A DNA stretch of 64,000 nt, from contig JAHDFD010000001.1 in the NCBI GenBank assembly GCA_020628375.1, positions 81,332 to 145,331 of the forward strand. Reading direction: 5' to 3'. Positions 8,130-63,613 of the stretch are shown here, one piece after another. A program made the position numbers and the translations under genes. The notes beneath the pieces were generated by a model. The model searched no databases and was not told the origin of the DNA. It worked only from the letters and a program-made list of their open reading frames with translations. The stretch comes from Chitinophagales bacterium (lineage in GTDB: Bacteria > Bacteroidota > Bacteroidia > Chitinophagales > UBA2359). Position 1 is the first letter of the stretch. Each line of letters opens with the position of its first letter.

Positions 8130-8246
8130 TTGATAAAGTATTATAAGAAAAATTGGTAGTGTTTCATATTGAGTGATTTTTTATTTTAGAGTTTGTTAAT
8201 ATCTTTTTCTAACCTATTTTTCAGAAAAAGATATTAAGCGATAGGT

Positions 8247-8370: not shown

Positions 8371-8379
8371 AAATAAGAT

Positions 8380-8973: not shown

Positions 8974-9172
8974 TTTTTCAAGTTTTTATTCTTCTTTATT
9001 AGATAGATTTTAAAACGATTTTTTATAGTGTGTCTTCAACTACGCTGGTGTTCCAGTACAATCAGACACCCATTTTTGGTTATAGCTCAGAGTCGAAATG
9101 ACCAAAAAATAAAAAACATTTCAGAGCATGTTCAGAATTAGTATTTACCAAATTTAAAGCCAATTTATTTTT

Positions 9173-10543: not shown

Positions 10544-10674
10544 GTTATTTTTACTTTGAATCGGTAAAGATACAGCGAGTTCAAAGCTTCATCAAAAGCA
10601 ATTTTGATTTTATAGGAACTTAGTTGGATTTGTTTACATTATAAAAATATATGTGCATGTTTTAAATTAGCCTA

Positions 10675-11172
10675 ATGAAACAAGGACCTCAAATACAGGT
10701 ATCATTACAAGCCATCGATTGGTTGCTTGAAATTATAGGACTAATAGCCATCTTCTTTCTGTTCTTCTACACTTTCAGTTATTACGATAGCCTTCCTGCT
10801 GAAATTCCAAGGCATTTTGGCTTTAATGGTCAGCCCGATGCTTATAGTTCAAAAATAATTATATGGACTTTCCCCATTCTTGGTTTATTGTTATATGGCT
10901 TTCTTCGACTGATAAATTCTTTTCCGCATACCTTTAATTATGCTAAAGAAATTACTGAAGAAAATGCCTTGGAACAGTATCGTTTAATGACAAGAGTATT
11001 ACGCATTATCAATGTGCTTACAGCCCTATTATTTTGTTCGCTTTTATATAATCTGGTTCAGGTTGGTTTAGGATATCGTGAAGAGCTTATACTTTCGCTT
11101 GATATAGTTTTGTATGTTGTGGTAGTTTTGGGTTTATCATTTTATAGTTTTTACAGATCAAAGCGGTTGTGA
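10675..11172 (+). CDS. DUF1648 membrane protein
   Basis: 165 residues with four probable transmembrane segments (about 16-36, 62-80, 108-128 and 138-158). The segment after the first helix, SLPAEIPRHFGFNGQPDAY, is the DUF1648 signature. DUF1648 proteins are small inner-membrane proteins, sometimes linked to lantibiotic immunity (SdpI-like) but of unproven function in Bacteroidota. It is convergent with the restriction-modification gene that follows. Confidence 0.75.
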   Translation: MKQGPQIQVSLQAIDWLLEIIGLIAIFFLFFYTFSYYDSLPAEIPRHFGFNGQPDAYSSKIIIWTFPILGLLLYGFLRLINSFPHTFNYAKEITEENALEQYRLMTRVLRIINVLTALLFCSLLYNLVQVGLGYREELILSLDIVLYVVVVLGLSFYSFYRSKRL

Positions 11173-46059: not shown

Positions 46060-49000
46060 TTACAGTTTCCCTTGTGTTCCCCCTCTAAGTATATCTTTAA
46101 CCATAGCGAACATCATAGCATTGAAATCTTCTTTAGCTTCTTTATTGTCTGTAATTAGCTTGTAAAAATCGAAGCGTGTTGTAACGTATTTTAGTAATTC
46201 TTGCTGGGCAATTTTATCGCTGGTAATTCTGGCATTTTGTTCATCTGAAAACTTTATAGAGTTAAGTACTTCTTCATTATTAGCCATATCCTGCGCAATG
46301 TCATAGAAATCTTCTGCTATCTTTCTAACCTTATCTGAATCGTCAAATTCAGTTCCAAAGCGATCATTGAATGTTTTAATAATATTCGACAATAAATCTA
46401 TTTCAGGATCATTAACACCTCCACGCATTTCGGTTGGAATGGCTTTTAAATCTTCACCTTGTTCCAACAAAATATTTGTTTGAGCTTCTAATTGAAGTCT
46501 GTAACTATCCATATCAATATTATTCAGAATACCTTTGGCTAAATCTTCAGAGGTATTACCACCTAATTTATTCTGAAGATGATTAAGAAAGATATACAAA
46601 CGTTCTAAGTAGGCATTTTCAAAGTGAACTATCTGTGATAAAAAGACATACAAACGAACATAGCTTTTAACTTTTAATCGGAAATCTACTTGTTCTTCTT
46701 CATTTAGATCATTTCTGAAAATATCACTTGATTCATCTAATAAAGCGTGTAATTCATCGACAGATACATTTGCTAATATCTTATCTGAAAAAGCTTCAAC
46801 TTGTTCGCTCGAATATACCTGAAACGCATCTAAAGCATCTTGTAAGTCAAATAGCTTATTAGGGTCGGTTGCTTCCCCTAAAATGGTACTTTCAAAATAA
46901 GGTTTAAAAGCTTTCTCTATTTCATCGGCTGTATTGGCAAAGTCATAAACGAAAGTATCTTTTTTTGAAGGATGGCTTCTATTCAATCGAGATAAAGTTT
47001 GCACGGCATTTACACCTCCCAACTTTTTATCTACAAACATGGTATGTAATAAAGGTTGATCAAAACCTGTTTGAAATTTATTGGCAACTATAAGAAAACG
47101 ATAGGCTGCTTTCTCAAATTCATCAGGAATATTTGCGCCCGAAAAGCCATTTAAACTGGCTTCGGTTTGTCCATTAATTTCACCCGAAAAACCTACAACA
47201 GCTTTATACGGACTATTGATAGATTTTAAGTATTTATCAAATGCTTTTTTATAAGCAACAGCATTTTTTCTACTAGTGGTAACTAACATTGCTTTTGCTT
47301 TTCCATTTATTTTACGTGCTTTGATCACTTCTTCCAGAAAATGATCGATCATTATTTTTGTTTTCTTTTCAATAGCATGCTCACTACTTTCCACATAGTG
47401 TTTAAGTTTCTTTTGCGCCTTCTTTTTATCGTACTCAGGATCATTTTCTATTTTCTTTAATAAGGCATAGTAACTCTGATAGGTTGTATAATTTTGTAAC
47501 ACATCTTTTATAAAGCCTTCTTCTATGGCTTGTTTCATAGAATATAAGTGAAAGGCTCTGAACTTCGTTTTATCAGCTTCCTGATATGGCACACCGAACA
47601 ATTCTAAAGTTTTGTTTTTAGGTGTTGCCGTAAAAGCAAAATAACTGGCATTAGGTAACAGTTTTCTCGACTTGATTATACTTCTTATAAAGTCTTCTCC
47701 TGAAGCTTCGTTACTTTCAAACTCATCATAGTCTTCAAGTGTTTTCTTTAGTACTTCTTCATCATCGACCTTAGCTAAAGTTTCGTTGAGTTTACGTGCC
47801 ATTTTACCACTCAATCCACTATGGGCTTCATCTATGATAATGGCAAAATTACTAGCCGACAATTCGCCAATATCTCCTACTATGTGCGGAAACTTCTGTA
47901 TGGTTGTCGTAATTATTTTTTTACCTTCTTCTAAGGCTGTCTTTAATTGTTTACTACCTTCTGTAATGGCTTCTACTACGCCTTTTACTTGTTGGTATTG
48001 TTTTATGTTCTCTCTGATCTGTTTATCTAAAACCCTACGATCTGTGATTACAATTACAGAATCGAATACGGTGGATGTTCCTTGTTTATTATGTAAGCCT
48101 ACTAGTTGATGTGCTAACCAGGTAATCGAATTACTTTTACCAGAACCTGCGGAATGTTGTATCAGGTATTTTTGTCCTGCGCCGTTTTCTTGTGCATGAC
48201 TTAATAGTTTCCTTACTACATCTAATTGGTGATAACGCGGAAAAATGAGCTTTTTTACTTTCTTCGTTTTCTTTTGTTCATTTTTATCTAAATATTCTTT
48301 TTCTTCGCTTATAAGCTGTGTGAAATTTTGAATGATATTGACCAGACTATCTTTTGTCAGAATTTCTTTCCATAAATAATCTGTACGGAAACCATCTTTT
48401 GGCGGATTGCCTGCGCCGTTGTTATGTCCTTTATTGAAAGGCAAAAAATAGGATGCTTCTTTTTTAAGCTCGGTACACATCCACACTTCTTCGCTATCAA
48501 CGGCAAAGTTTACCAATAATCTACCAAAAAGAAAGATAGCTTCATTGGGATCTCTGTCTTTTTTGTACTGCTTAATTGCGTGCTGAACATGCTGTTTGGT
48601 TAGTTCGTTTTTCAGTTCAAAACTTATAATGGGAATGCCATTAACAAAAACTACAAGGTCTAAGGATTTGCGGTTATTGGGTGAAAAATAGACCTGTCGT
48701 ATTACCGAGAAAATATTGGCTTCGTAGTGCTTGTTGTCTTTTAAATTATAATGTGAAACAGGTTTATCGTAGAGTAAGCTTAGTTTGGTGCTGGTAAAAC
48801 CTTCGGTAATGCCTTTTCTCAATACTTCAATTATTCCTTTTTGCCTGATCTGATCGTTTATACGTTTTATGATCTTTTGCTTGTAAAGGTCTTTATGGAA
48901 TTTTTTGATCTTTTCTAAAGCTTTGGCTTGTGTAGCTTCCAGAAATTGAAATAATAATTCGGTATCTACACAATTGATATTATCGTAACTAGTATTGTTT

Positions 49001-49080
49001 CTTAATAGATAATTATTACTATTGACAAGGTATTCTGCGATGTGTTTTTCAAAACCGTTTTCTTTAGTATTTGTAGGCAT
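46060..49080 (-). CDS. hsdR: Type I restriction enzyme, motor/nuclease subunit R
   Basis: 1,006 residues, the usual HsdR size. The nuclease core LDLVVFVNGIPIISFELK is near residue 147 (Asp...Glu-x-Lys). Translocase motifs: Walker A QHSAGSGKSNS near 310, DEAH in IIIDEAHSGLSGKMARKL near 420, FTATPKNKTLELFG near 490 and QTLSRLNRSHPSKK near 695. The C-terminal helical domain that docks to HsdM follows. It cleaves unmodified DNA when bound to the HsdM-HsdS complex encoded just upstream. An 11-bp tandem repeat array lies between its start and the preceding gene. Confidence 0.94.
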   Translation of the reverse strand: MPTNTKENGFEKHIAEYLVNSNNYLLRNNTSYDNINCVDTELLFQFLEATQAKALEKIKKFHKDLYKQKIIKRINDQIRQKGIIEVLRKGITEGFTSTKLSLLYDKPVSHYNLKDNKHYEANIFSVIRQVYFSPNNRKSLDLVVFVNGIPIISFELKNELTKQHVQHAIKQYKKDRDPNEAIFLFGRLLVNFAVDSEEVWMCTELKKEASYFLPFNKGHNNGAGNPPKDGFRTDYLWKEILTKDSLVNIIQNFTQLISEEKEYLDKNEQKKTKKVKKLIFPRYHQLDVVRKLLSHAQENGAGQKYLIQHSAGSGKSNSITWLAHQLVGLHNKQGTSTVFDSVIVITDRRVLDKQIRENIKQYQQVKGVVEAITEGSKQLKTALEEGKKIITTTIQKFPHIVGDIGELSASNFAIIIDEAHSGLSGKMARKLNETLAKVDDEEVLKKTLEDYDEFESNEASGEDFIRSIIKSRKLLPNASYFAFTATPKNKTLELFGVPYQEADKTKFRAFHLYSMKQAIEEGFIKDVLQNYTTYQSYYALLKKIENDPEYDKKKAQKKLKHYVESSEHAIEKKTKIMIDHFLEEVIKARKINGKAKAMLVTTSRKNAVAYKKAFDKYLKSINSPYKAVVGFSGEINGQTEASLNGFSGANIPDEFEKAAYRFLIVANKFQTGFDQPLLHTMFVDKKLGGVNAVQTLSRLNRSHPSKKDTFVYDFANTADEIEKAFKPYFESTILGEATDPNKLFDLQDALDAFQVYSSEQVEAFSDKILANVSVDELHALLDESSDIFRNDLNEEEQVDFRLKVKSYVRLYVFLSQIVHFENAYLERLYIFLNHLQNKLGGNTSEDLAKGILNNIDMDSYRLQLEAQTNILLEQGEDLKAIPTEMRGGVNDPEIDLLSNIIKTFNDRFGTEFDDSDKVRKIAEDFYDIAQDMANNEEVLNSIKFSDEQNARITSDKIAQQELLKYVTTRFDFYKLITDNKEAKEDFNAMMFAMVKDILRGGTQGKL

Positions 49081-49104: not shown

Positions 49105-49215
49105 TGTCTAAATAAATGTCTAAACTTCGTCTAAATCTCGTCTAAACTTCGTCTAAATCTCGTCTAAATCTCGTCTAAACTTCGTCTAAATCTCGTCTAA
49201 ACTTCGTCTAAATCT
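49105..49215. repeat. 11-bp tandem repeat array upstream of hsdR
   Basis: Nine consecutive 11-bp units, one TGTCTAAACTT (49117-49127) then eight of CGTCTAAATCT or CGTCTAAACTT (49128-49215), plus a degenerate unit at 49105. The last unit overlaps the stop codon of the AlbA_2 gene, and the array ends 25 bp before the hsdR start. The unit length is not a multiple of three, so copy-number changes would shift any reading frame across it. Confidence 0.9.
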
Positions 49216-50869
49216 TTAATATCCAAGCTCGTTTTTCATTAGTTATGATAAGCTTTTCTATTCTTAAGTTTTGTAATATGTTTTTGATTTTATTACTTTT
49301 TTGCTCATTAGAAAGAACATCTGGAAGTTTGTCTAAAAGCAAGGCTTCAAAATCGGAACGTTTTGCTTCTCCAAATTCTTCGAGGTAGTCGATAATCATT
49401 TTTTTACAATATTCATCATCAATACCTTTCTGTTTCATATAATTCACTTCTTCGCCTGTAGCTTTGGCAACCGATGCTGCAATATGAAAATTTGGTTTTC
49501 TACCAGTAATTAATTTTTTATTCCTTAACGACTTAATTTCTAATTTGGTTAAATCTTTATTTTTAGCAACTTTATCGAGGGCTATTATATCTAAAAGAGA
49601 TAAATCTTTTAATGTCGCCAACTTTTGGGCATAATTTATATCAACCACTTTACCTGTAAAGCTTACTTTTACCTTATCATCTGTTAGCTCATAGTCTGGC
49701 AAAGGGAAGTATTTATTTCTTTGGATAACAAACATTTTTTTAATACCACTTCCAATGGTATCTATCATGTTCAGGTTAACCATTGCCTGTACCAAAAAGC
49801 TATTACGATATACCGATTCAGGAGCATCGCCGATAACCACTTTCTCTACATTTTTAGGAATAAATTTACCTGAATTTAAAAAGGTCAATCGGCTATCTTC
49901 GTTTTCAACTACTACAATTTTTCCGCCTAAAGTATAATCTTGATGGGCAATGCAATTGTTAAGGGCTTCACGAATGATAAACGGATCGTACTGTTCTACT
50001 TCTTCGGGAAATAAGGTATCGTGAAGTATATAACGGTACTTCAGATTTCTAATTTTTGCATATAGTTTATCGGTGCTTAGAATAATGGGACAAGTAAAAT
50101 GTTCATAGTCTTTTTCTAAGTTGTCTTTATCTTTTAGTATCCAGGTGATTTGGCTAGTGGCTGGATTTAAAAAATGTTCCGATTCGGGTTTACCTAACAA
50201 TAATATGGCGGTATTTGTTATTTTACCGTTTATGGTTACTTTGGCTTTATTTAAAAAAGTGGAGGTATCCCAAGTATCTATTTCATCGGTAATTCGTGGG
50301 TTTTTGATCTTAAACAAGTTTTTTGCTTTGGCAATAGCTTCTTCTGATAGATCGGCAATAGTGGCTTGCTCAACAATTTTTATACTCCAATCGAATTGAA
50401 CGACTTGATTTCTTATGCGTTCAAGTTCTTCTAAATTCAGGGCTTGTAATGATTCGCCATCTCTACCAAAGTAATGACCTTTCCATGCAATAGGAAAGCC
50501 TTTTGGGGCTGGAGGAATTTCAAAGAGGATAACTCTTTTACCTTCTTCATTCGTAAGCTCGTAAATTTCTTTAAAGGTGATACGATTAGTTGTTAGCTGG
50601 GCTATTTCATTTTTCAGGCTGTTTAATTGGCTTGGTTTGCTACGAAATTGAGTATTGACAAATGCTTTGTCTTTATCACGAATACCGAATACTAACCATG
50701 CTTGATCTAAACCTTTGAGGTTGGCTTCGTTGCTGAGTGCCGAAAAGTATTTACCCAATTTATTGAAGTCGTATTGGTTTTTGGCTTCTTTAAATTCTAC
50801 AATTTCATTTTCGTAGCCTTGCTCTATTAATTGTGCAAGTTGCGCTTGTATTTCCGTTAGGCTTTTCAA
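49208..50869 (-). CDS. AlbA_2 (Schlafen-like) ATP-binding protein in the hsd operon
   Basis: 553 residues. The N-terminal AlbA_2/Schlafen-like domain is visible at about 10-125 (NEIVEFKEAKNQYDFNKLGK, then WLVFGIRDKDK and GHYFGRDGESL). A GHKL-like C-terminal part follows near 290-330 (IREALNNCIAHQDYTLGGKI then RLTFLNSGKF), the RecG-like ATP-binding fold usual in this family. Winged-helix segments occupy the C-terminus. Such genes are often found inside type I restriction operons, between hsdS and hsdR as here, with unknown role. Its stop codon lies within the first unit of the tandem repeat array. It starts 24 bp after hsdS. Confidence 0.82.
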   Translation of the reverse strand: MKSLTEIQAQLAQLIEQGYENEIVEFKEAKNQYDFNKLGKYFSALSNEANLKGLDQAWLVFGIRDKDKAFVNTQFRSKPSQLNSLKNEIAQLTTNRITFKEIYELTNEEGKRVILFEIPPAPKGFPIAWKGHYFGRDGESLQALNLEELERIRNQVVQFDWSIKIVEQATIADLSEEAIAKAKNLFKIKNPRITDEIDTWDTSTFLNKAKVTINGKITNTAILLLGKPESEHFLNPATSQITWILKDKDNLEKDYEHFTCPIILSTDKLYAKIRNLKYRYILHDTLFPEEVEQYDPFIIREALNNCIAHQDYTLGGKIVVVENEDSRLTFLNSGKFIPKNVEKVVIGDAPESVYRNSFLVQAMVNLNMIDTIGSGIKKMFVIQRNKYFPLPDYELTDDKVKVSFTGKVVDINYAQKLATLKDLSLLDIIALDKVAKNKDLTKLEIKSLRNKKLITGRKPNFHIAASVAKATGEEVNYMKQKGIDDEYCKKMIIDYLEEFGEAKRSDFEALLLDKLPDVLSNEQKSNKIKNILQNLRIEKLIITNEKRAWILKI

Positions 50870-50893: not shown

Positions 50894-52246
50894 CTATTCC
50901 CCCTGCCACCCTCGCACATCTATTTTACCGGTTACTGCTTCGGCAATAAGGGCGGTTTTGTATTCTTCTACTAAGCTTATTTCTTTGGAAATAGTTCCAA
51001 TGGTTTTATCTATCTTTTGGGTTTCCTTAGTTATGAAATCTACTATTTTTTGTTGTTCTGGAAGTGGAGGGATGCAAGTATAAATAGATTTTAGATGATG
51101 TACTTTAAACCTAAAAACTTTAACACCAGTTGCATACTTTCTCAATTCTTTTGCAAACACTTGCGATGAATGATGTAAATATTTTTCATTAACTATATTC
51201 ATATTAGGTTTTAACAATATCTGTTCACCTCCTAACAAGCCTAAATCACTTCGATTATAAAACACCGAATGCCCTAAATCTTCTATTGTTTCTGATGTTG
51301 ATATAAAAATAACATCACCATAATTCACAACTTGAGAATCTTTATAAAATTCACTATTAACATAAAAGTTATACTTTTCATTAATTACATTAACCTTATA
51401 AGTTTTTCCATATTGCAAAGCAACATATTCACCGTTTCTTAACAATTCATCTTTTTTAAAACTTGAATTTCCTCTTATAAGATTACACATACTATTAATT
51501 TTGGTAACCTCCCAATGTTGAGGAATATCGCCGAGCCATTCGATGCCTGAGTTTTTCATTTTGGCATTAGGCTTAATGCCTTTGGTAACGGCTTTATTAA
51601 TAAGGGCTTGTTTTTTCTCGTTGAGTAGTTCAATGAGTTGTTTTTTCTTGCTAATAAAACGGTTTATTTTTTCGAGTTTAAAATCGAGGAAATTGGCTAT
51701 TTGGGTTTGTTCTGAGAGGGGTGGGAAAGGTAGTTTTATTGAACGCAAATCATCTCTCGAAACTTTCAATCTCAATGTATTATATTTCCCTTCTCCCCTA
51801 TCAATGGCTATTAATCCCCTTCCAAGGCTAAACAAAACTCCTTGAACTATTTTACTCCTAAATAGATATTCATAAAACTTGACATTTGACTTGTTGAGAC
51901 CAACATAGTATGTATAATAGACGGGACTAACACAACCAAAATAAGACGAAACTCCAACAGCCCCAACAATCATATTCATACTATTAAAAACAATATCACC
52001 TTCATAAGCTAGCTTATATTTAGTAAAATCATCTTTAAAACGATCTAAGTTTGTTGTTTTTTCCGAATATAAAGTCACTCCTTTATCTATTGAAAGTGAA
52101 AGCCTTTCTTTACTCTTAATAGGATTATTCTTTTCATTCCTCTCTGAAAGGATATTCTTAAAAGATCGAATTACCCATGAATCAGGAATTTCGCCTAACC
52201 ATTCAATGCCACTTTCTTTATATTTTGGATACTTCGTCAATGCCAT
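50894..52246 (-). CDS. hsdS: Type I restriction-modification specificity subunit S
   Basis: 450 residues with the symmetric HsdS layout. Target domain 1 starts YKESGIEWLGEIPDSW and ends FPPLSEQTQIANFLDFKLEK; a conserved coiled coil (ISKKKQLIELLNEKKQALIN) follows. Target domain 2 starts SGIEWLGDIPQHWEVTKIN and ends PPLPEQQKIVDFI with a second coiled coil. The two halves recognise the two parts of a bipartite DNA site. The start codon overlaps the hsdM stop by one base (TAATG), so the genes are translationally coupled. The recognition sequence cannot be read from the protein. Confidence 0.93.
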   Translation of the reverse strand: MALTKYPKYKESGIEWLGEIPDSWVIRSFKNILSERNEKNNPIKSKERLSLSIDKGVTLYSEKTTNLDRFKDDFTKYKLAYEGDIVFNSMNMIVGAVGVSSYFGCVSPVYYTYYVGLNKSNVKFYEYLFRSKIVQGVLFSLGRGLIAIDRGEGKYNTLRLKVSRDDLRSIKLPFPPLSEQTQIANFLDFKLEKINRFISKKKQLIELLNEKKQALINKAVTKGIKPNAKMKNSGIEWLGDIPQHWEVTKINSMCNLIRGNSSFKKDELLRNGEYVALQYGKTYKVNVINEKYNFYVNSEFYKDSQVVNYGDVIFISTSETIEDLGHSVFYNRSDLGLLGGEQILLKPNMNIVNEKYLHHSSQVFAKELRKYATGVKVFRFKVHHLKSIYTCIPPLPEQQKIVDFITKETQKIDKTIGTISKEISLVEEYKTALIAEAVTGKIDVRGWQGE

Positions 52247-54096
52247 TATTCAGTAATTTCTTTAAGCAGGTTTTCAGTTTCGGTTTCCAATGCCAGAATA
52301 TCGGCAGTAATTTCGTTTAGTGATCTTAAAGCTTCGTACTTGTAAAAGTATTTATTAAAGGCTATTTCGTAACCTACTTTCATTTTGTTTTTTTCGTACC
52401 ATGCGTGAGGCGCAAATGGTATAACTTCTCGTTCAAAATATTCATCAATATTTTCTTTCATTGGCACGTTTTCGCTGTCTTTTAGTGCCTTATCGGGTTT
52501 AGGATTCCCCTTTTTATCGGTAAGTATATTTCCTGCTTCATTTTTTAAGGGCTGTTGCACGGTTATTTGATAAGTACCAAAATCGGCATTATCAAAAATT
52601 TTGCTGTACTCGTTTTCTTCAAAAGCAAAGTATAATTCTTGCACTTTTGAAATGTGATCAATTGTAAGTTCATTTCTTTTACTTCCTAGAGTTTTACGCA
52701 TTCTCCTATAAAAATTTTCAGAAGAAGCATTTATCAGCTGTACTTTTCCTTTGCGTTTTTCTTCCTTGATATTGCTGATTATCCAGATATAGGTTGCAAT
52801 ACCTGTATTGTAAAAAATATCGTTGGGTAGCTGGATAATACATTCGAGCAAATCGTTTTCAATTATATATTGTCTGATACCGCTTTCGCTGCTGCCTGCA
52901 TCGCCTGTAAAAAGCGCCGAGCCATTGTGTACCGAAGCAATTCTGCTTCCGCCATCTTCAGGGCTTTTCATTTTAGACAACATGTGTAGCATAAACATCA
53001 ATTGTCCATCATTACTACGAGAGGTAAGGCATTTTTCTTCTAATTCGCCTTTGAAGTTTTTAATTTTTAAATTGAAACGGGTATCGGTAATTTCTACTTT
53101 TTTGGCTGTGCCTACATTCAGTTCTTTTATGTCTTCTTTCCAGCTTGTTCCATAAGGTGGGTTGGTAAGCATAAAGTTGAATTTCAGGTTAGGGTCGAAA
53201 CCGTATTTGCTAAGCGTAGAGCCAAATTTTATTTTGTCGGGATCTTCGCCTTTCAACAGCATATCAGATTTGCAGGTGGCGTACATTTCGCCTGTATTTT
53301 CTTGTCCGTATAAATGAAAAGTGGCATTCGATCTTATTTCTCCATCGGGGTCGGTAGCAAACTTCTTCGATTGGGTTAACATAGCGCCCGAACCCACGCA
53401 GGGGTCGTACACCAAAAACGTGCCTTGTTGAATTTTGTCTTTCACTGGCAAATATACCAAGTGAGTCATGAGTTCAATAATTTCTCTGGGCGTGAAGTGC
53501 CTTCCTGCTGCGGCATTTGTTTTTTCATTGAAGCGACGAATAAGGTCTTCAAACATATAACCCATAGCCATCGGGGAAATTTTTTCGGGTCTGAGTTCTA
53601 CCTTAGGGCTGCAAAATTTTTCGAGTAAAGAAAAGGTAATGCCTGTTTCTTCAAAGGTTTCTAATTGGTTTCTGAATTTGAATTTAGAGATAATATCCTG
53701 CACATTCTCTGAAAAGCCATTGAGGTAATCTTCGAGGTTCGAGTCGATGTTCTTAGGGTCATCGAGTAATTTTTTCATGGTGTATTGCGAGGTATTGTAA
53801 AAAGCTAAACCAGCGCCGTGTTCTTTACTGGTAAGTAAGCCCGAAAGGTCGTCGATCTTATCTTTGAATTGGTGGTAGGTATTGAGCACCTGTTGTTTGG
53901 TGTTCTCTAATGCCAGATCTAATCTGCGCAGCACGGTCATCGGTAAAATTACATCCTGGTATTGATTTTCGAGGTATTTGTTTATGAGTATATCATCGGC
54001 AACCGCCCAAATAAAGTTGATAATGGGTTGTAGGCTTTGTGTATCGAGGCTCATAGATTTATTTTCTTTTTGGGTGTGGTATAATAGTTTATTCAA
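52246..54096 (-). CDS. hsdM: Type I restriction-modification methylase subunit M
   Basis: N6-adenine methyltransferase subunit. Helical N-terminal domain (IINFIWAVADDILINKYL), then motif I YDPCVGSGAML near residue 229 and motif IV LTNPPYGTSW near 315, both intact. The open frame allows Met1 at 54096, but the conserved N-terminus begins at Met15 (MSLDTQSLQPIINFIW), which puts the likely start at 54054 and the length at 602 residues. hsdM leads the hsdM-hsdS-AlbA_2-hsdR operon, 91-133 bp downstream of the receiver gene and on the same strand. Confidence 0.94.
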   Translation of the reverse strand: MNKLLYHTQKENKSMSLDTQSLQPIINFIWAVADDILINKYLENQYQDVILPMTVLRRLDLALENTKQQVLNTYHQFKDKIDDLSGLLTSKEHGAGLAFYNTSQYTMKKLLDDPKNIDSNLEDYLNGFSENVQDIISKFKFRNQLETFEETGITFSLLEKFCSPKVELRPEKISPMAMGYMFEDLIRRFNEKTNAAAGRHFTPREIIELMTHLVYLPVKDKIQQGTFLVYDPCVGSGAMLTQSKKFATDPDGEIRSNATFHLYGQENTGEMYATCKSDMLLKGEDPDKIKFGSTLSKYGFDPNLKFNFMLTNPPYGTSWKEDIKELNVGTAKKVEITDTRFNLKIKNFKGELEEKCLTSRSNDGQLMFMLHMLSKMKSPEDGGSRIASVHNGSALFTGDAGSSESGIRQYIIENDLLECIIQLPNDIFYNTGIATYIWIISNIKEEKRKGKVQLINASSENFYRRMRKTLGSKRNELTIDHISKVQELYFAFEENEYSKIFDNADFGTYQITVQQPLKNEAGNILTDKKGNPKPDKALKDSENVPMKENIDEYFEREVIPFAPHAWYEKNKMKVGYEIAFNKYFYKYEALRSLNEITADILALETETENLLKEITE

Positions 54097-54187: not shown

Positions 54188-55075
54188 CTACGTTTCAAAC
54201 AAACCAGTCTCAATGCCTTGTTTATACCACATCATTACTTCAAAAAGAGCGTAGGCAATGGCATTGAAAGCAAAGCGAGTGTAAGGTATTCTTTGATTTT
54301 CTATTGCGTGTGTGTATAATGGAGGATTCCAGTTTACAGCTTGTGTAAAATATTCGATAGCTTGATTTTGGTAAACTTTTGTAGTTGGTTCGTAATTTCC
54401 ATCTCTATTACCAGTTAATACTTTTTTCTTGTCATTGAATCTTACACAGTCTTCTAATAATTCAAAGTAAACATTAATTTGGTTATAAATATGTTCTTGA
54501 ATTGTACGGGCATCGGTTAATAATCCACGTTGTTCAGCTTCTGATTTTTCGTTAAACGAGTTATTTTCTACACAAGTTAATAGGGCAATAAATCTATCAA
54601 TATATTCATCATCTAAAAAACCATCATCAAAAATTTTGAATAATTCGGGGTATTTTCTTTTCAATATATAAAGTTCGGATTCACCTACTATTTCTCTTAG
54701 TTTATTTATAAAATCGGCAAGATTGCCATAATCGCCTTTATCAATAATTATGGGCTTTTCATCAATTATTCCCTCCAATTGTTCTTCTACATCATCTATA
54801 TAGGCAGTGTAAATGACAATGTTAATTTTATCAGATAATCTTCTTATTTTTTGAAATCCCCTTGTAACGTGTACTGCTCTCTCGTCTGTATGTTCAGGTG
54901 TTAAAAAACCTTTACCGTCAAGTATAATTAAGTCGAAATCATTGATTTTTTCTCTTAGATCACCAATTCCAGTATGTAGATCTGTTGCAAAGTCAAAACC
55001 TATTTCAGCATCGAAGCATACAGTTTGCATACTATTGCACAACTCTCTATTGTTGTCAATCATAAATAACTTCAT
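54188..55075 (-). CDS. Receiver-domain protein coupled to the methylase-kinase gene
   Basis: 295 residues. Residues 1-125 look like a response-regulator receiver: acidic pair region LFMIDNN (Asp7), phosphoacceptor Asp53 (LIILDGKG), Thr in VIYTAYI near 94 and Lys114 (IIIDKGDYG). The C-terminal 170 residues are helical, without a DNA-binding motif or any family recognised; the late segment RIPYTRFAFNAIAYALFEVM is hydrophobic but not clearly membrane-spanning. Its ATG overlaps the stop of the upstream fusion gene by 4 bp, so the two proteins are made together and are probably a cognate pair. The output is unknown. Confidence 0.72.
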   Translation of the reverse strand: MKLFMIDNNRELCNSMQTVCFDAEIGFDFATDLHTGIGDLREKINDFDLIILDGKGFLTPEHTDERAVHVTRGFQKIRRLSDKINIVIYTAYIDDVEEQLEGIIDEKPIIIDKGDYGNLADFINKLREIVGESELYILKRKYPELFKIFDDGFLDDEYIDRFIALLTCVENNSFNEKSEAEQRGLLTDARTIQEHIYNQINVYFELLEDCVRFNDKKKVLTGNRDGNYEPTTKVYQNQAIEYFTQAVNWNPPLYTHAIENQRIPYTRFAFNAIAYALFEVMMWYKQGIETGLFET

Positions 55076-58000
55076 ACTATAATATTTCTTTGTATGTTGA
55101 ACTTAATAATTACATTCCATTTGTCATCAGTATTCCCGTGTAAATCTATCGGAAATATTTCACCTCCTAATTTTTGAATGGCTTTGGTAATTAAAACACC
55201 ACCCAAGCCAGTACCTGCATTTTTTCCAGCCGTTTTATCAAGCGAAATATAGTCTTGAAATTTAAAATCTTTAGGAAATGGATTGCCATTATTCTTGTAG
55301 AAAATAGTTACTTCATCGCCTTCTTTCTTAATCTCAAATTCAACTTCTGGTTTGTCAATTCCTTGTTTTCCGTGTTTATGAAAATTACTATATAAGTTTT
55401 CGAGTATAGTAGAAAGGCAAAAGTCATTTATAGGTAATATTACCACATCTCCAACTACTTTTGTTTTCACTTCTCCTTTGTATTTAGATGCCGTATCTAC
55501 CAATGCTTTATTTAAGCCTTTTTTTGTTAGCTTTAAGTCATTATCCAACTTATACAAGTTTTGAATATTACTAACTATATTGCTTATATCTACTAAAAAA
55601 CCATTTACAATATCAAAATCCTGTCTTAAAGAATGTTGGGTGTTTACACCAGTTTTACTTTGCCAATTTAGCTGCTCATTGTTCGATAAAATATTCCTAT
55701 CAACAAAACCTTCCAATTGTTTTAGGCTGGTAGATGCAGGAATGTATTGATTGTTTACATAATGCCGTAACGCCTTAGAAATACTAATATTAATATCAGT
55801 GTTTTCTTTGTCTATCTCAATTGAGTCCTTTTTTTGATTTTTTACCAAGCATTGCTGCTGTTCTTCAATACTTGGAACTTGTATTCTGATTTCTTTAAAT
55901 TTAGATATAGGAATTCTTTTTTGAATAGTACCTCCACCAAAGGCATTAAATTGTTGCTGACTAAGTTCTTTTTTTAATTGTACAACAAAATATTCTGGGA
56001 TAATTTTTTCGGTATCTACTTCTAAAGCAAACAAATATTCTTTGATACTATAATTTGATTCGTCATCAATTTTTAAGACAGCAGAATTGGTTATATTTAG
56101 CTGAGATACTACAATAGAATTGTTTTTTAAAATTTCTGACTCACTAACTGGATAAAGCTGTTGATTAGCTATTCCTGTAATAAAATTAGTAGAGAGTGAT
56201 TTTAGAAACTTAGTATCAATTTGTTTAGCAGGAACGAAGTTTGCGTTTTTACTGGCTCTTTGTCTTTTGCCAATTTTTAGGGTTTTTGTTAGTTCTGATA
56301 TTGGTATATAAGCTGTGAGGTCAATATCTGGATTTTCTATTTCTTTTGTAATTAAATACCGCTTACTAAAAAGTTGATACTTGTTTTTTACCACTTCTTC
56401 TGTTGAAATGAAAACACAATTTTCAGAGCTTATATCACCCGTTTTATGGGTTTCTATAACTTTCTTTAATTCTATCAAAAAGCCTGTTAATTTTTCGTCA
56501 TAATATTTTGACTTCAATTTATAACTGGTAAGGTCTGCAAATAGAATTTTATCTGTGTTTGCTCTATTTTTATTCAAAACAATTAGAGAAGTATTCACAC
56601 TAGCATAATCATAAATCTGTGGTAAATTAATAACTGCATCTAAAGCATTATTATCTATAATTTTTTTTCTTAATTCTAAGGTGTTTTTATGTTGACTATT
56701 AAGCACTCCTGTTGGTACTATTACATAACCAATACCATCATTTGATAACGAATTATATACTTTATTTAAAAAATTTATAGAAATATCTTTAAAAAGACGT
56801 TTAGGGTCATTAGTTCCAAATGGTGGTTCACAAATTATTAAATCATACTCTTCAACAAAATAATTCATTCCCATAAAACTATCACTCAAAGATGTGAGAG
56901 CTGAATCTGTATTTTGCAAATTCTTAATATCAATATCATTCAATATAAAATTAATTCCAGCCAAGCAATATGCGTCTTGGTTCACTTCTGAAGCATACAC
57001 CTCTAAATTTGGTATGTTTAGCTTATTAAAACACGAAACAATAGTTCCAGCAGTTCCAATTGTAGGGTCATATATTGATTTGTATTCTCTTTCAGTATTA
57101 ATAAGTTCAGTAATAATGTAATCAAAGAGTGGATTATTCATATATCCGTTTTTGATTGACAGTATTTTATTTAACGATTCGGAATAATATGCTTGTAGAA
57201 ACTGAAGTGTTTGCTCTGAATTCGTTTTATACGCTTCAATAAGCTCATTACTTAATTCATTTATGAATCCTGATGCGTAATCACCTAAAAATAATTTAGA
57301 ATAATCATACTTAGAAAATATAGATTTAAAAAAAGTAATCTTGTATTTAGCATTAAGCTCACTCAATACACTATCTAACTCTTTTAGATGTGCTTGATGT
57401 ACGATTTCATTAGAACTTTCATCAATTAGATCTAAATTATTTAAGAGTTCATCTGAGAGATGATTATATATATCTATTTCTGATAATTGACTTCCATCCT
57501 TTAATGTTTCAATATTCAAAGCAACGACTGACCAAACAAATAAAAAAGCAGATTTTAAATCGAAGGAATTTTCGTTATTAAATCTTTTTAAATAATAATT
57601 CAAACTATTTTCTAAAGCTAACAGAGGAGGAGTTTCTTCATCATTTTCTAAAATCTCAAGCAGTTCTTTCTCAATTGTTTTAATGCTTTTAGTTTGATAG
57701 TGGCTCCAATCAATTTTTAGTTTTTCCTTGGAAAAGTAAATTGATTGAAAGATTGAAGAAAGGTCAGCATTGTAATCTTCTTTTATTCGATTTATTATTT
57801 CTCGTGCATAATATTTATTCCCATTACTAAAGTTATGTAAGTAAATCGCATTTTCACTCGAGCCAGTATCTAAAATTTCAAATGGCACATCAATTAGCTG
57901 TTTTGGATTATCAGCAGAGAAATTTTCAGACAGCCTAATTTTTAGGCCTTTGTTGTATTTAGAGAGCCCTTCAATAATGGTGTCTTTTTCTACAATTGTA

Positions 58001-58116
58001 TCAATTATCAGTTTCTTTGGGTTAATCAAGATTAAACAAGTTTTGATTTTAAATATGTCCCTTATTTCAAAAGACAATGCAAACATAAAACGGAGGTGTG
58101 CAGTAATTTCGCACAA
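55072..58116 (-). CDS. Methylase-specificity-histidine kinase fusion protein
   Basis: 1,014 residues. Residues 320-520 have an N6-adenine methylase fold like HsdM: motif I YDPTIGTAGTI (349-359) and motif IV ICEPPFGTND (428-437), with Glu in place of the usual Asn/Asp of NPPY. Residues 600-760 look like an HsdS half: a target-domain-like region ending in RIPISKFKEIRIQVPSIEEQ. Residues 775-1010 look like a histidine kinase core: possible phosphoacceptor helix ALRHYVNNQYIPASTSLKQL (His785), N box ENLYSNFHKHG (Asn907, Asn911), G1 NNGNPFP and G2 GTGLGGVLI. The frame opens with TTG at 58116; Met11 (ATG 58086) is the likelier start. DNA sensing plus phosphotransfer is inferred. Confidence 0.8.
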   Translation of the reverse strand: MCEITAHLRFMFALSFEIRDIFKIKTCLILINPKKLIIDTIVEKDTIIEGLSKYNKGLKIRLSENFSADNPKQLIDVPFEILDTGSSENAIYLHNFSNGNKYYAREIINRIKEDYNADLSSIFQSIYFSKEKLKIDWSHYQTKSIKTIEKELLEILENDEETPPLLALENSLNYYLKRFNNENSFDLKSAFLFVWSVVALNIETLKDGSQLSEIDIYNHLSDELLNNLDLIDESSNEIVHQAHLKELDSVLSELNAKYKITFFKSIFSKYDYSKLFLGDYASGFINELSNELIEAYKTNSEQTLQFLQAYYSESLNKILSIKNGYMNNPLFDYIITELINTEREYKSIYDPTIGTAGTIVSCFNKLNIPNLEVYASEVNQDAYCLAGINFILNDIDIKNLQNTDSALTSLSDSFMGMNYFVEEYDLIICEPPFGTNDPKRLFKDISINFLNKVYNSLSNDGIGYVIVPTGVLNSQHKNTLELRKKIIDNNALDAVINLPQIYDYASVNTSLIVLNKNRANTDKILFADLTSYKLKSKYYDEKLTGFLIELKKVIETHKTGDISSENCVFISTEEVVKNKYQLFSKRYLITKEIENPDIDLTAYIPISELTKTLKIGKRQRASKNANFVPAKQIDTKFLKSLSTNFITGIANQQLYPVSESEILKNNSIVVSQLNITNSAVLKIDDESNYSIKEYLFALEVDTEKIIPEYFVVQLKKELSQQQFNAFGGGTIQKRIPISKFKEIRIQVPSIEEQQQCLVKNQKKDSIEIDKENTDINISISKALRHYVNNQYIPASTSLKQLEGFVDRNILSNNEQLNWQSKTGVNTQHSLRQDFDIVNGFLVDISNIVSNIQNLYKLDNDLKLTKKGLNKALVDTASKYKGEVKTKVVGDVVILPINDFCLSTILENLYSNFHKHGKQGIDKPEVEFEIKKEGDEVTIFYKNNGNPFPKDFKFQDYISLDKTAGKNAGTGLGGVLITKAIQKLGGEIFPIDLHGNTDDKWNVIIKFNIQRNIIV

Positions 58117-58129
58117 TCAAGTTTTTTCT

Positions 58130-58378
58130 ATGGATTTTAATGTATTAGTTCGGTACAAAGTATTAGATACCTGTTTTAGAGATAGCACAAGATACTACGA
58201 TATAAATGATTTAATAGAAGCAGTAAATATTGCTTTAGATAGAATTAATGATTTCAAACTGTTTTATTCTGAAGATTTTATCGAATGTGGCTTCAACCTG
58301 AATGAATATTTTGATGATGTAATAGGCATTTCTGTTCCGAGTAATAAACGAGTAGAAACTATCAAACGCTTGTTTTAA
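58130..58378 (+). pseudogene. Truncated WYL-type regulator (N-terminal HTH part only)
   Basis: From ATG 58130 the 82-residue product (NVLVRYKVLDTCFRDSTRYY then DINDLIEAVNIALDR) matches the start of Bacteroidota WYL-domain transcription regulators, whose N-terminal HTH begins RYK-LD-CF-N. The WYL domain and most of the usual 300 residues are missing. The gene is divergent from the methylase-kinase gene with only 13-43 bp between starts, the normal place for its regulator. A longer open frame upstream (from 57950) is antisense to the fusion gene and not credible. Either a remnant or a minimal DNA-binding protein. Confidence 0.6.
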
Positions 58379-58453: not shown

Positions 58454-58600
58454 ATGCAACTCAACCCTAATACATACAATACCCTATTCGATAAACTAAG
58501 CCAACTAATAGAGCAAAGCCGAGCCGAAGCCTACTAACAAGTAAATACTATTTTACTCAAAACCTATTGGCAAATCGAAGAATACATACCTTTGTAAATA
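58454..58600 (+). pseudogene. DUF1016-like N-terminal remnant with in-frame stop
   Basis: Starting at ATG 58454 the frame reads LFDKLSQLIEQSRAEAY, stops (TAA at 58535), then continues in the same frame as QVNTILLKTYWQIEEYIPL to 58600. This is the conserved N-terminus of a second DUF1016/YhcG subfamily. One stop codon and loss of the rest mark it as debris. Confidence 0.6.
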
Positions 58601-58602
58601 CA

Positions 58603-58989
58603 ATGCAAGTATCTGAAAATAACCAACAGCTATTCCAACAAATAGCCGAAGTAATACAAAGTGCCAAAAGCAAAACAGCAAAAGCCATTAATTCAGCAAT
58701 GGTGGAGGCGTATTGGCACATTGGAAAAATTATAGTTGAAGACGAACAACAGGGCAACCAAGCCGACTACGGTAAAGAGATTTTAAAGGGCTTGTCTAAA
58801 CAACTTACTGAAAACTATGGTGGAGGCTTCCGACTTAGAAATTTATACTATATGCGTTCATTCTATCAGAGTTTCCCAATATTGCACACAGTGCGTGCAG
58901 AATTGAGTTGGACACATTACAGGCTACTATTAAAGGTAGAAAAAGACAATGCCAGAAGCTTTTATTTAGAAGAAAAAATAAAAGATTAA
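58603..58989 (+). pseudogene. Truncated DUF1016 gene, inverted paralogue of the one at 33267
   Basis: Starting at ATG 58603 (MQVSENNQQLFQQIAEVIQ) the product is very close to the first 130 residues of the intact DUF1016 protein at 33267-34280, including AINSAMVEAYWHIGKIIVED and LSWTHYRLLLKVEK. It stops at KIKD, before the nuclease domain. It is oriented opposite to the intact copy. A few upstream codons are open but precede the family start. Confidence 0.75.
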
Positions 58990-60950: not shown

Positions 60951-61976
60951 TTACGATTGATTTTCGTAAAACTCAGCAACTGATTGTTTAAAAGTGCTTT
61001 CAGTCCAATCTTCCCATTTCCCTGAATATGGATCATAACCACATTTTAATGGTTTACTATAGATATTTTCAGGTTCTTCTAAAAATGCCCGACAATCAGA
61101 ACAGATATATCTGAACTCACAATCTTTACAAGTATCTATTTGATCTTTATGAATATTTCCCACCTCTAAAAATTCATTATTACTGATAAGATCATTTAAT
61201 TTGTAATCTTTTACATTTCTAAAGCCTTTCTGCATTGATGGACAGTTTTTAATGTTTCCGAACTCATCTATGAACACTTTCTTATACAGGCACGAATTCT
61301 TTTTAAGGGACATATCAAATTGAGCTGCGTTCATTGTAAAATAATTTTCATCTATAATCCCACAATGACTTTGGTCAAGATTGTTAATGTTAAAGATGAT
61401 ACAACGAAAATCTGTATTATAAACTTCATTTGAAGGAGCATTATAAAATTCAATTTTCCAGATTCTTTTTTCATGATTGAAAAGGTCAATCATATTTTCA
61501 TAGTTAGCTGTATAAGGTAAAACCAATTGAATACTTTCCAGAAAGTTCTCTTTTAAGTATGATAATATTATTTCTATCTCTCCCTTAGTTGAAGGTTCAA
61601 CAAACCTTATAATCAGATGTGCAGTTGAGATACTTTTGAGTAAGTTAATATGAAAACTCTCTATTGATGCAATATCAATAATTGCATCAATAAAATGAAA
61701 AGGCATTTCTACTTCTGCTTCTACATCAAGAAAATTATATCCTTTGTAATCACTATGGAAATATCCAATATTGCTTGAATCCTGTAAATCCAGTAACTCA
61801 GATTTAATATCTTCTTTAAGTAAATCCAAATTAAAAGAATGGTGCTTTTCTGAGTAAGATTGTATTATATTTTCCTTCAAAAATCGATAATAAGATTGGG
61901 ATTTAAAATCTATGATAATAGCATACATAAACCCAAACACAACTTTCACAGACTTAGCTAAAACAAGGTAATTCAT
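60951..61976 (-). CDS. SPASM-domain peptide maturase of a grasp-with-spasm system
   Basis: 341 residues. The C-terminal third has the cysteine set of the SPASM iron-sulfur domain: NSCLYKKVFIDEFGNIKNCP, then DTCKDCEFRYICSDCRAF and KCGYDPYSGKW. There is no radical-SAM CxxxCxxC in the N-terminal part, which is what is known for the SPASM partner in grasp-with-spasm clusters. Its role in maturation of the peptide is not well defined. It ends the cluster, 100 bp after the ATP-grasp gene on the same strand. Confidence 0.85.
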   Translation of the reverse strand: MNYLVLAKSVKVVFGFMYAIIIDFKSQSYYRFLKENIIQSYSEKHHSFNLDLLKEDIKSELLDLQDSSNIGYFHSDYKGYNFLDVEAEVEMPFHFIDAIIDIASIESFHINLLKSISTAHLIIRFVEPSTKGEIEIILSYLKENFLESIQLVLPYTANYENMIDLFNHEKRIWKIEFYNAPSNEVYNTDFRCIIFNINNLDQSHCGIIDENYFTMNAAQFDMSLKKNSCLYKKVFIDEFGNIKNCPSMQKGFRNVKDYKLNDLISNNEFLEVGNIHKDQIDTCKDCEFRYICSDCRAFLEEPENIYSKPLKCGYDPYSGKWEDWTESTFKQSVAEFYENQS

Positions 61977-62076
61977 TAGAATTTTTTAAAATTGATGGTT
62001 TTCAGAACAGGTCGTTGAGGAACTAATAATTTCTTAGTAATTGTTTGATGGTTATCTGAAGAATAAGCCGAAACTT

Positions 62077-62985
62077 TTATAGTACGACCATTTTTTTGTT
62101 CTGATTTACTTTTATCTTCTCGCATAATAATTGGGCTATAAGTTTTGAAATTTGATTATTGTAAGCGAAGTCAACATTATCGAAAATTCCTTGGGGATTA
62201 ATATCTATTACTCTGAAATTCATTTCCGTGTCTATAAGAATATCCATAGTGGCAAAATCCAATTTTAGTTTATCCAAAACAACTTTGATTTGCTTTTGTA
62301 CTTTTTCAGGAAGTCTATATTTCTGAACTCTGATAGACATATCAGTTCTTGCATCTATAATACCATTAGGAGCTTTGATCTTAAGAATACTATAAAATAC
62401 ACCTTTGATATAAACACTTCTAACTTCAAAAGAATTTTGAATCAACTGTTGGTATAAATTAAATTCACACAAATCATCATTCATACTGAATTTTTTCTGA
62501 AACCTTTTTTTGTTAAGCTCTGAGACCTTAACAAAATCTCCTACCGATTTGGTGATATAATCTTTCTCCCATGATTCATTTCTTTGATTGGTAATAAATG
62601 AATTGGACGAAATACGAAAAACATCACAAATCGTTTTTTCGATATACGCTCTGTTGCTATTTCTGAAAATAGCTGGTGAACCTATAAAATTTCGTTTATT
62701 TTTTGATGAAAAGAAAAAAGCATCAATTATATGATTAAGATCTAATAAGTCTTCAAAATCATAAATTGCAGATTTTAAAGCAAGTGTTGGTTTTCTAAAC
62801 CATATCTTTTGAACTTCAATGTCGTTAACAAAAAGCTTATTACGCTCAATATTGAAGTAAATAGACAATTCTTCTACTGCATCACAATTCAAACGATAGA
62901 ACAAATTATCTTTCCGAAAATGCTTTATCCAATTGATTACTTTACAGCTCGACTCATCGTATTGCCTGGTAATGATGAGAATCAT
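62077..62985 (-). CDS. ATP-grasp peptide ligase of a grasp-with-spasm (graspetide) system
   Basis: 302 residues of the RimK/MvdC-like ATP-grasp fold that forms ester or amide cross-links between side chains of the precursor. Visible: IQKIWFRKPTLA near residue 60, a central KSVGDFVKVSELNKKRFQKK lysine segment, ARTDMSIRVQKYRLP, and the metal-binding DLKLDFATMDILID-type segment LKLDFATMDILI with RVIDINPQGIFDNVD near the end. Its start overlaps the thioredoxin-like gene by 4 bp. High confidence from the fold plus neighbours. Confidence 0.88.
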   Translation of the reverse strand: MILIITRQYDESSCKVINWIKHFRKDNLFYRLNCDAVEELSIYFNIERNKLFVNDIEVQKIWFRKPTLALKSAIYDFEDLLDLNHIIDAFFFSSKNKRNFIGSPAIFRNSNRAYIEKTICDVFRISSNSFITNQRNESWEKDYITKSVGDFVKVSELNKKRFQKKFSMNDDLCEFNLYQQLIQNSFEVRSVYIKGVFYSILKIKAPNGIIDARTDMSIRVQKYRLPEKVQKQIKVVLDKLKLDFATMDILIDTEMNFRVIDINPQGIFDNVDFAYNNQISKLIAQLLCEKIKVNQNKKMVVL

Positions 62986-63563
62986 TTATTTCTTCTGAGA
63001 TTTTTATCTAAAAACTTAGCAACTCTTTCATACTTTTCTTCTTTCACGATTCCACCCGAAACAGCAAGTACCACAACACCTTCAGCGTTCAACAAAAGCG
63101 TAAGTGGATAACCAGCAGGGTTTTCATCTATATCTTCCCTGAAATAGAATGGGACTTTAATCCAATCATATTCTTCTAAACCATATTTCATGAATACCTC
63201 ACTTTCGTCTCTGCTCAATGAAACAATAGGAAGTTCGGGGTAGTTATCCGATAACTTTTTAAGGAAAGGTTTTTCTACCAGACATCTTTCACAAGTTTCA
63301 AACCAATAATTAAGTAAATAATAGCTTTCAAAATCATCGGAACAATATTCGTTACAATCAACGTCTTCTACACAAAAATCTGTAAACTGAAAATTATGCA
63401 GACATTCATCTCTCATCTTATAGACATCAATATTATGTAAATTACCAAAATGTTCTTTGAAACAGGCATGTACTTTCTTTACAAGTCTTCCATTTCTATC
63501 GATAGGTTGTGCAATACAATAAGTAGAAAGAAATAATATTATAAAAAAGGAAAATAACTTCAT
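62982..63563 (-). CDS. Exported thioredoxin-like protein of the graspetide cluster
   Basis: About 193 residues from the ATG at 63563 (MKLFSFFIILFLSTYCIAQ, a signal peptide); the in-frame ATG at 63584 lies inside a terminator hairpin and is less likely. The redox motif CERC (WFETCERCLVEKPFL) and SLSRDES, VPFYF and YPLTLLL follow the TlpA/thioredoxin fold in the periplasm. The segment before it carries five extra cysteines (CFKEHF, CLHNF, CVEDVDCNEYC). It is placed between precursor and ligase genes and overlaps the ligase start. It may handle disulfides of the exported peptide, which has one Cys. Confidence 0.75.
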   Translation of the reverse strand: MKLFSFFIILFLSTYCIAQPIDRNGRLVKKVHACFKEHFGNLHNIDVYKMRDECLHNFQFTDFCVEDVDCNEYCSDDFESYYLLNYWFETCERCLVEKPFLKKLSDNYPELPIVSLSRDESEVFMKYGLEEYDWIKVPFYFREDIDENPAGYPLTLLLNAEGVVVLAVSGGIVKEEKYERVAKFLDKNLRRNK

Positions 63564-63580
63564 AGATTTATGATTAAAAA

Positions 63581-63613
63581 TCAATCACCTAAATTTAAAA
63601 TTCAGATGATTGA
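63581..63613 (-). terminator. Terminator/attenuator between precursor and maturation genes
   Basis: On the minus strand a 10-bp stem (63613-63604 with 63590-63581, one G-U) and a 13-nt loop are followed by TTTTT. It lies 16 bp after the precursor stop, so part of the transcripts should end here and the precursor be made in excess. Confidence 0.65.

Follow-up and report, generated by a model that had tools for sequence, protein, structure and literature searches.

Type I methylases, M2S assemblies such as EcoR124II and EcoKI, and two-component systems of the HK853/RR468 type are close described counterparts of a gene pair that we analyzed in a Chitinophagales bacterium (GenBank assembly GCA_020628375.1, contig JAHDFD010000001.1, positions 81,332 to 145,331; this stretch of 64,000 nucleotides is called the window, and positions below are those of the window). 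One gene encodes a sensor in which a methylase (M) domain, a specificity (S) domain and a histidine kinase (HK) are fused, and the other encodes a receiver (REC) domain followed by an output domain. The sensor shares with the type I methylases the M fold, an S half and hsd genes as neighbors. It differs from them in its single chain, which has only one S segment and is joined to HK, in the loss of the catalytic motif in 46 of 67 family members, and in having a separate HsdM and HsdS alongside. With two-component systems the pair shares the DHp histidine, the N, G1 and G2 boxes, and an adjacent receiver with Asp, Thr/Ser and Lys; however, the input of the sensor is a DNA-enzyme module and the output is not a named DNA-binding domain.

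Detocs is a two-component-like phage defense with phosphotransfer logic and an effector fused to a receiver, as in the pair described here, but it has three genes (DtcA, DtcB and DtcC) and its input and effector are different. No Detocs name appeared among the PADLOC matches of four sensors (best 25 each) and four receiver proteins had no PADLOC match of any kind, no Detocs model having been compared individually. PrrC is an accessory guarding restriction, located in a type I operon and sequestered in the type I enzyme complex (PMC3874165), and PARIS is described as a guardian watching over restriction (PMC12707154). Proteins with a Schlafen domain, a minimal kinase ATPase and a winged helix-turn-helix (HTH) occur at BREX loci, near restriction-like systems (PMC12839542); they are different proteins from the M-S-HK sensor. 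The likeness to PrrC and PARIS lies in the role proposed below, that of an accessory watching over restriction. The mad2 and mad5 models of MADS in PADLOC partly match the M and S parts of the sensors (best 8e-24 and 6.2e-12), with type I methylase models scoring higher in two of three sensors (L102 and L080) and mad2 being the top match in L012. We know of no HK-receiver pair in MADS, nor, to our knowledge, do PrrC and PARIS use phosphotransfer or a pseudo-methylase sensor. Literature searches among open-licence PMC papers listed none that describes the M-S-HK fusion or the pair in its title or opening abstract lines, which does not imply absence from print. As far as found, an M-S module as the input of phosphotransfer is new, while the parts and the logic have precedents in two-component systems, guardian systems and Detocs.

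The interpretation that we favor, with somewhat better than even confidence, is that a degenerate type I M-S complex feeds a phosphotransfer switch whose output resembles an effector, and that this switch assists type I restriction as a defense accessory, probably in the role of a guard. Sequence comparison and structure prediction together show the domain content, the kinase and receiver residues, the conserved pairing of the two genes, the exchange of HK with REC, the swapping of outputs, the linkage to type I systems and the frequent loss of the methylase motif. The features of the two genes are as follows.

55072..58116, minus strand: M-S-HK sensor, 1014 residues, with a TTG start at 58116 (an in-frame ATG at 58086 is possible)
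56335..57114, minus strand: M domain, residues 335-594, with EPPF instead of NPPY/F (Pfam N6_Mtase 4.9e-29, motif comparison)
55807..56319, minus strand: single S half, residues ~600-770 (PADLOC Specificity_I models; HsdS chains by profile)
55087..55806, minus strand: histidine kinase DHp and ATPase, residues 771-1010 (Pfam, profile, motifs, predicted helix 750-811)
55762-55764, minus strand: codon of the predicted phospho-acceptor H785, within the DHp part of the sensor
54188..55075, minus strand: receiver protein, 295 residues, overlapping the sensor gene by 4 bp (profile and model)
54683..55075, minus strand: receiver domain, residues 1-131, with D53, T90, K113 and the acidic pair D7-N8 (profile, model)
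54206..54676, minus strand: helical output domain, residues 134-290, with conserved R190, E194 and H256 and a weak resemblance to DUF4145/HEPN

An earlier note, written from the letters of the window, had read the sensor as an HsdM-like fold, an HsdS-like segment and a complete kinase ATPase, and each of these parts was recovered by database comparison. In Pfam, the sensor matches N6_Mtase over residues 335-594, at the E-value listed above, and HATPase_c over residues 901-987 (E 4.7e-5; its 24.2 bits lie below the curated cut-off of 26.4). Residues ~595-789 match type I specificity models of PADLOC. A profile built from 18 sensors retrieves from the PDB the HsdM of EcoR124II (5.6e-61), HsdS (2.9e-15) and histidine kinases, including the DHp and ATPase of 2c2a (1.8e-13), and the matched chains are ordered HsdM, HsdS, histidine kinase along the profile. 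These domain matches are far beyond chance. The motif YDPTIGTAG is located at residues 349-357, EPPF at 430-433, the N-box at 904-916, the G1 box at 939-948 and the G2 box from 968. The H-box histidine, H785, was absent from the earlier list; with it, the H-box histidine and the N, G1 and G2 boxes of a histidine kinase are all present. The predicted model of the sensor, of moderate quality, resembles M-S methylases (top match 7eew). Residues 1-105 are poorly modeled, and the true start of the protein may differ from the TTG. A helix predicted for residues 750-811 starts where the S part ends and continues through H785 (pLDDT, the predicted local distance difference test score, of 58-84 over this block). 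In a domain scan, no sensor contained more than one S segment, one fewer than the two of a type I S subunit; two such segments could meet within a sensor dimer.

The receiver protein of the window has no Pfam match when searched alone. A 19-member receiver profile matches CheY-like receivers (E 1.4e-5), and the AlphaFold2 model of the protein (pLDDT 88.9, predicted template modeling score, pTM, 0.83) is matched by receivers of the PDB. The region C-terminal to the receiver domain is all-helical. The 4-bp overlap between the genes (55075-54188 and 58116-55072) was correctly stated in the earlier note. Its receiver set of Asp7, Asp53, Thr and Lys114 holds for D7, D53 and T90, while the lysine is residue 113 and the acidic pair is D7-N8. 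The protein has the residues and fold of a response regulator, with Asn at the second acidic position.

With the window receiver protein as query, homologues were found in seven of 298 genomes of the order, its own genome counted. A profile (A1, E <1e-15) identified 13 of 395 genomes in a sample of the phylum, again with its own counted; 12 of these matches cover both receiver and output, and one (G572) covers the receiver only. The other genomes, which bring the tally of this sample to 118, have matches that are weak, mostly short and of the receiver type. A scan of named genomes yielded at least 63 loci, with L059-L112 being mostly true relatives. Among the loci listed, relatives occur in Flavobacterium, Olleya, Formosa, Maribacter, Sphingobacterium, Hymenobacter, Prevotella and others, and all named relatives are Bacteroidota save L093, labelled Oceanicaulis, and L099, labelled Limnohabitans. 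The Limnohabitans label is probably wrong, because the phylum sample drawn for L099 has its matches at the same contig positions as the sample of the window's phylum. Outside that phylum, none of 348 other genomes in one sample (the phylum of G674, labelled Oceanicaulis) contained a relative, and pattern scans of IMG/VR (window receiver protein, A5 and A6) returned none. In plasmids, the window receiver protein had no match, and the window sensor led to a pair on a plasmid of Myroides odoratimimus. Loci from Poribacteria (L113-L121) have HK and REC without M or S recognized by our own profiles.

We assembled 73 receiver-output homologues, consisting of the window, one plasmid, 17 from the genome samples and, from 53 loci of the scan, 54 more, of which L107 duplicates L049. 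An HK-bearing open reading frame (ORF) is located immediately upstream in 71 of them. The two others are L016, where no sensor was found, and L099, where the ORF begins at contig base 70. All three parts, M, S and HK, are recognized within one ORF in 65 of the 71 upstream partners, so that the kinase is not consistently separate in homologues, the case that the earlier note had named as refuting. The sensor-receiver pair is a conserved system and not a one-off fusion. Sensors were compared in a set of 67 (the 71, less L077, L079 and L088, which are shorter than 600 residues, and the duplicate L107), and 46 of the 48 downstream HsdM proteins were compared with them.

The residues needed for phosphotransfer, the mode of signaling inferred in the earlier note, are nearly invariant. 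H785, N911, G944, G970 and G972 are present in 67/67 sensors and N942 in 66/67; the G1 box has the form N-x-G, where D-x-G is usual. Among 67 receivers, D53, H256 and Thr or Ser at position 90 are found in all, D8 in 66, K113 in 65, R190 in 65 and E194 in 60. NPP[YFW] is kept in 21 of the 67 sensors and lost in 46, and the motif I Asp is kept in nine; of the partner HsdM proteins, 46/46 show both this Asp and NPP[FY]. By these counts, the kinase and receiver residues are held and the methylase chemistry is not. As 46 of the 67 sensors lack the catalytic motif, recognition is a likelier role than methylation. An active methylase that methylates DNA under the control of the attached kinase could account for the 21 sensors with NPP[YFW], yet the remainder, including the window sensor, whose EPPF is not the NPP[YF] of a functional type I methylase, have lost the motif under invariant kinase residues, and we regard this explanation as very improbable. 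A tree of the M domains contains a split (support 0.876) that separates 61 of the 67 sensors from all 46 HsdM proteins.

Comparisons between loci show that HK and REC travel together. In 24 locus pairs with similar M (identity >0.5) and different HK (<0.4), pairs that are not independent of one another, REC differs too (mean 0.34), and REC never drops below 0.68 in the 55 pairs that combine similar M with HK of 0.6 or more. Kinase and receiver are thus exchanged between loci as one block across the gene boundary. The output domain is swapped independently of this block. Between the receiver proteins of L095 and L102, 140 of the first 150 alignment columns, those of the receiver domain, are matched and the similarity beyond them is at background level, with sensor parts that are 0.88-0.96 identical. 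Ten pairs with HK of 0.6 or more show outputs below 0.35, and the output of L058 is SLFN_AlbA_2 (6.4e-15).

In the window, the order of genes on the minus strand is sensor, receiver, hsdM, hsdS, a HATPase_c_4 protein and hsdR, and a regulator remnant is located on the other side of the sensor.

52246..54096, minus strand: HsdM with NPPY intact, 91 bp past the receiver gene (Pfam N6_Mtase 3.7e-53, HsdM_N 4.2e-18)
50894..52246, minus strand: HsdS with two target segments (Pfam Methylase_S 4.4e-18, two stretches)
49208..50869, minus strand: HATPase_c_4 protein between hsdS and hsdR (Pfam HATPase_c_4 7.4e-10)
46060..49080, minus strand: HsdR (Pfam HSDR_N 5.2e-18, SWI2_SNF2 5e-26)
58130..58378, plus strand: WYL regulator remnant, oriented divergently from the sensor (our own WYL profile)

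The association with a type I system, proposed earlier for this locus, extends to the family. An hsdM gene is located within 5 kb downstream on the same strand in 48 of the 73 homologues, a figure inflated, and not a prevalence, because the named-genome scan began from restriction-linked members; that scan contributed 39 of 54 and the genome samples 7 of 17. A WYL regulator is found within 1.5 kb upstream in at least 46 of 71 by our own profile, a lower bound since the divergent WYL gene of L012, which is detected by Pfam, escaped this profile. Our HsdR profile likewise under-counted HsdR. One explanation of this arrangement is regulatory, with the receiver protein controlling the expression of the hsd genes or holding restriction back, for instance at establishment. 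Sensor and receiver are codirectional with hsdM and directly ahead of it (at most 100 bp away in 35 of the 73), and binding of nucleic acid is conceivable for the S1/CSD-like extension that some members have. On the other hand, the Pfam families shown for receiver proteins (first 25 of 46) include no HTH, outputs are swapped, some pairs have no hsd genes within 5 kb, and a WYL regulator is often already present upstream. A regulator of restriction is quite unlikely in our judgment.

The simplest form of DNA reading, a sensor tuned to the site of the neighboring HsdS, was not supported as a general rule by comparison. The sensor S part is no closer to the adjacent HsdS than to others: the cognate HsdS was its best match in one of 39 cases (median rank 19), and in a permutation test 753 of 5000 permutations scored at least as high. 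In 43 pairs of loci with sensor M above 0.5 and both HsdS known, mean identity is 0.67 for sensor S, 0.39 for HsdM and 0.24 for HsdS. Eight of these pairs have HsdM of 0.75 or more; their sensor S identities are 0.56-0.93, and their HsdS identities are 0.34-0.41 in seven and 0.89 in one (L054/L062). Overall, 51 pairs have HsdM of 0.75 or more, many of them with dissimilar sensors. The restriction system thus changes around a stable sensor, with similar sensors beside unrelated type I systems. As similar sensors occur with different hsd genes, and similar HsdM with dissimilar sensors, neither partner tracks the other, and the input is therefore likelier to be a feature common to type I systems or to phages at large than the site of one neighbor.

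Two candidates for the input may be considered. The S part could read one fixed, conserved site of foreign DNA, or its methylation state, directly. Conservation of the S part (mean target-segment identity 0.69 over 79 pairs with sensor M above 0.5) is what a fixed ligand would require, but a single site would presumably give little breadth against phages and no recognition site is known. We consider such a sensor possible, though rather doubtful. A more specific version of the favored interpretation, which we also hold only tentatively, is a guard against anti-restriction proteins, in which decoy M-S parts would bind Ocr- or ArdA-like mimics, or sense the inhibition of restriction, and switch the output as PrrC and PARIS do. 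This would explain both why the sensors can dispense with catalysis and why similar ones, ignoring the specificity of their neighbors, are found with unrelated type I systems. The top structural match, 7eew, is a methylase solved with Ocr, although this may merely reflect which M-S proteins were crystallized. Guardians of restriction exist (PrrC and PARIS, PMC12707154; PrrC also PMC3874165). Ten of the 17 sampled loci lack hsdM within 5 kb downstream, which speaks against such a guard, the rest of those genomes not having been searched. The guard version best explains the independence from the specificity of the partner.

A number of observations weigh against the favored interpretation. The 21 sensors with NPP[YFW] could, by their motif, methylate. 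Six sensors, that of the window included, group with HsdM in the M-domain tree, so that a single origin is not established for the window sensor. The model of that sensor has a pLDDT of 66 and a pTM of 0.58. With hsdM near so few of the genome-sample loci, linkage to restriction is not obligatory. The exchange pairs were judged to represent about five events (L059, L066, L054/L062, L060-L061/L110 and L050/L058), and joint exchange could be partly mechanical; given this non-independence and the physical adjacency of HK and REC, joint exchange fits cognate signaling without proving it. The output domain has, from its sequence, no firm family. Its profile aligns with that of DUF4145 (HEPN) weakly, with an hhalign probability of 42 and an E-value of 2.6e-4 over 112 columns. 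The window protein has R190-x4-H195, in agreement with the RX4-6H pattern, yet His at 195 occurs in only five of 67 members and the motif is not conserved.

Some details of the DUF4145 comparison make an RNA-acting effector plausible. In the alignment, the R...E and GSH/ASH motifs are in register. A smaller output profile gave an hhalign probability of 9.6 against DUF4145, where four control profiles gave 0.1-3.2 over 6-20 columns. Pfam DUF4145 was reached by one of 51 receiver members (0.018). L103 matches our own DUF4145-like profile at 8.5e-4, with Pfam empty for it at 0.05. Foldseek with the whole receiver protein returned mostly receivers and left the output domain unnamed. In 12 of the 51 members, a C-terminal extension has an S1/CSD-like match (S1CSD-TOTE-2, best 2.1e-6), and some extensions have weak matches to ssDBP (2.3e-4) and CSD (0.01). 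Separately, 17 ORFs, four of which are seeds, match a DUF4145-like profile made from HsdR-like N-termini (for example L085:19370 and L110:17276), and a HEPN-like domain may thus also be present in restriction subunits of these loci. A DNA-binding output was considered as well and set aside, no HTH family being among the Pfam families shown (first 25 of 46).

The last points concern the window copy itself, which is a very divergent member of the family. Asp occupies position 8 in 66 of 67 aligned receivers, with N8 of the window as the sole exception, and the WYL gene is reduced to model positions 6-38 and 209-257 joined in one ORF, the middle being deleted; its full-length relative in L060 is a Pfam WYL+WCX protein. 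Both features tell against our interpretation as applied to this locus, and they would fit a window copy that no longer works in a family that does. In contrast, the two ORFs have their full length and retain the remaining residues of kinase and receiver, and hsdM, hsdS and hsdR are long ORFs with Pfam domains. We consider a dead copy unlikely.

Other observations were made in the window and in related loci. The HATPase_c_4 protein of the window has no AlbA_2 by Pfam. A separate gene in the sensor-family locus L085 (17318-18733) combines Schlafen AlbA_2, HTH and a weak HATPase_c_4, the kind reported near BREX (PMC12839542). A gene between receiver and hsdM in L060 (11187-12527) matches DUF2130 (8.1e-88), and genes with similar N-termini occupy the same place in L061, L070, L085, L092 and L110. 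In L093 (505-3048), only HATPase_c is recognized in the kinase upstream of the receiver homologue and the N-terminal part belongs to no Pfam family; the input module may have been exchanged for something else. One Prevotella metagenome-assembled genome has tandem sensor-receiver pairs (L097:3522-7193 and 7384-10921), the S part of the second being unrecognized by our profile. On the Corynebacterium glutamicum plasmid p48A (L011, 5173-7386), an M-S protein without a recognized kinase is located beside an NYN gene, hsdM, hsdS and hsdR, and is possibly another accessory pseudo-methylase. Adjoining the WYL remnant, a short DUF1016_N ORF of 140 residues (58567-58989, plus strand) matches the PADLOC candidate defense family PDC-S02 (3e-49). 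The region 60951-63584 (minus strand) contains grasp-with-spasm peptide maturation genes, with a SPASM maturase (TIGR04193, 1.6e-63), an ATP-grasp protein (TIGR04192, 2.5e-20, below its cut-off) and a thiol-disulfide oxidoreductase-like ORF alongside.

For the pair itself, we infer the dimer geometry, the signal path, the phosphotransfer, the trigger and a growth-arresting or RNA-acting effector as output. Two sensor chains would pair through DHp helices that continue the S-domain helix, forming an M2S-like dimer. Its DNA-binding face would be engaged or displaced by DNA or by a DNA-mimicking protein, and the signal would travel down the helix. H785 would then be autophosphorylated and pass its phosphate to D53 of the partner receiver, freeing the exchangeable output domain to act. 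Such a unit would serve as a defense accessory of type I restriction, firing when restriction is evaded or inhibited. In its most specific and more speculative form, a decoy M-S dimer would sense phage effects on restriction (DNA-mimic anti-restriction proteins or escaping DNA) and His-Asp transfer would unleash interchangeable toxin-like outputs, giving a modular two-component guard of four exchangeable blocks, namely the M-S input, the HK-REC relay, the output and the guarded type I system.

If this interpretation is correct, histidine kinases would read DNA or DNA mimics with the machinery of restriction enzymes, joining two large fields, and restriction systems would have acquired a phosphotransfer guard. 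Accessory genes would be explained in dozens of type I operons (48 loci). Phosphorylation of the receiver would provide a direct assay of what a type I-like complex sees, and new antiviral effectors would be available among the swapped outputs.

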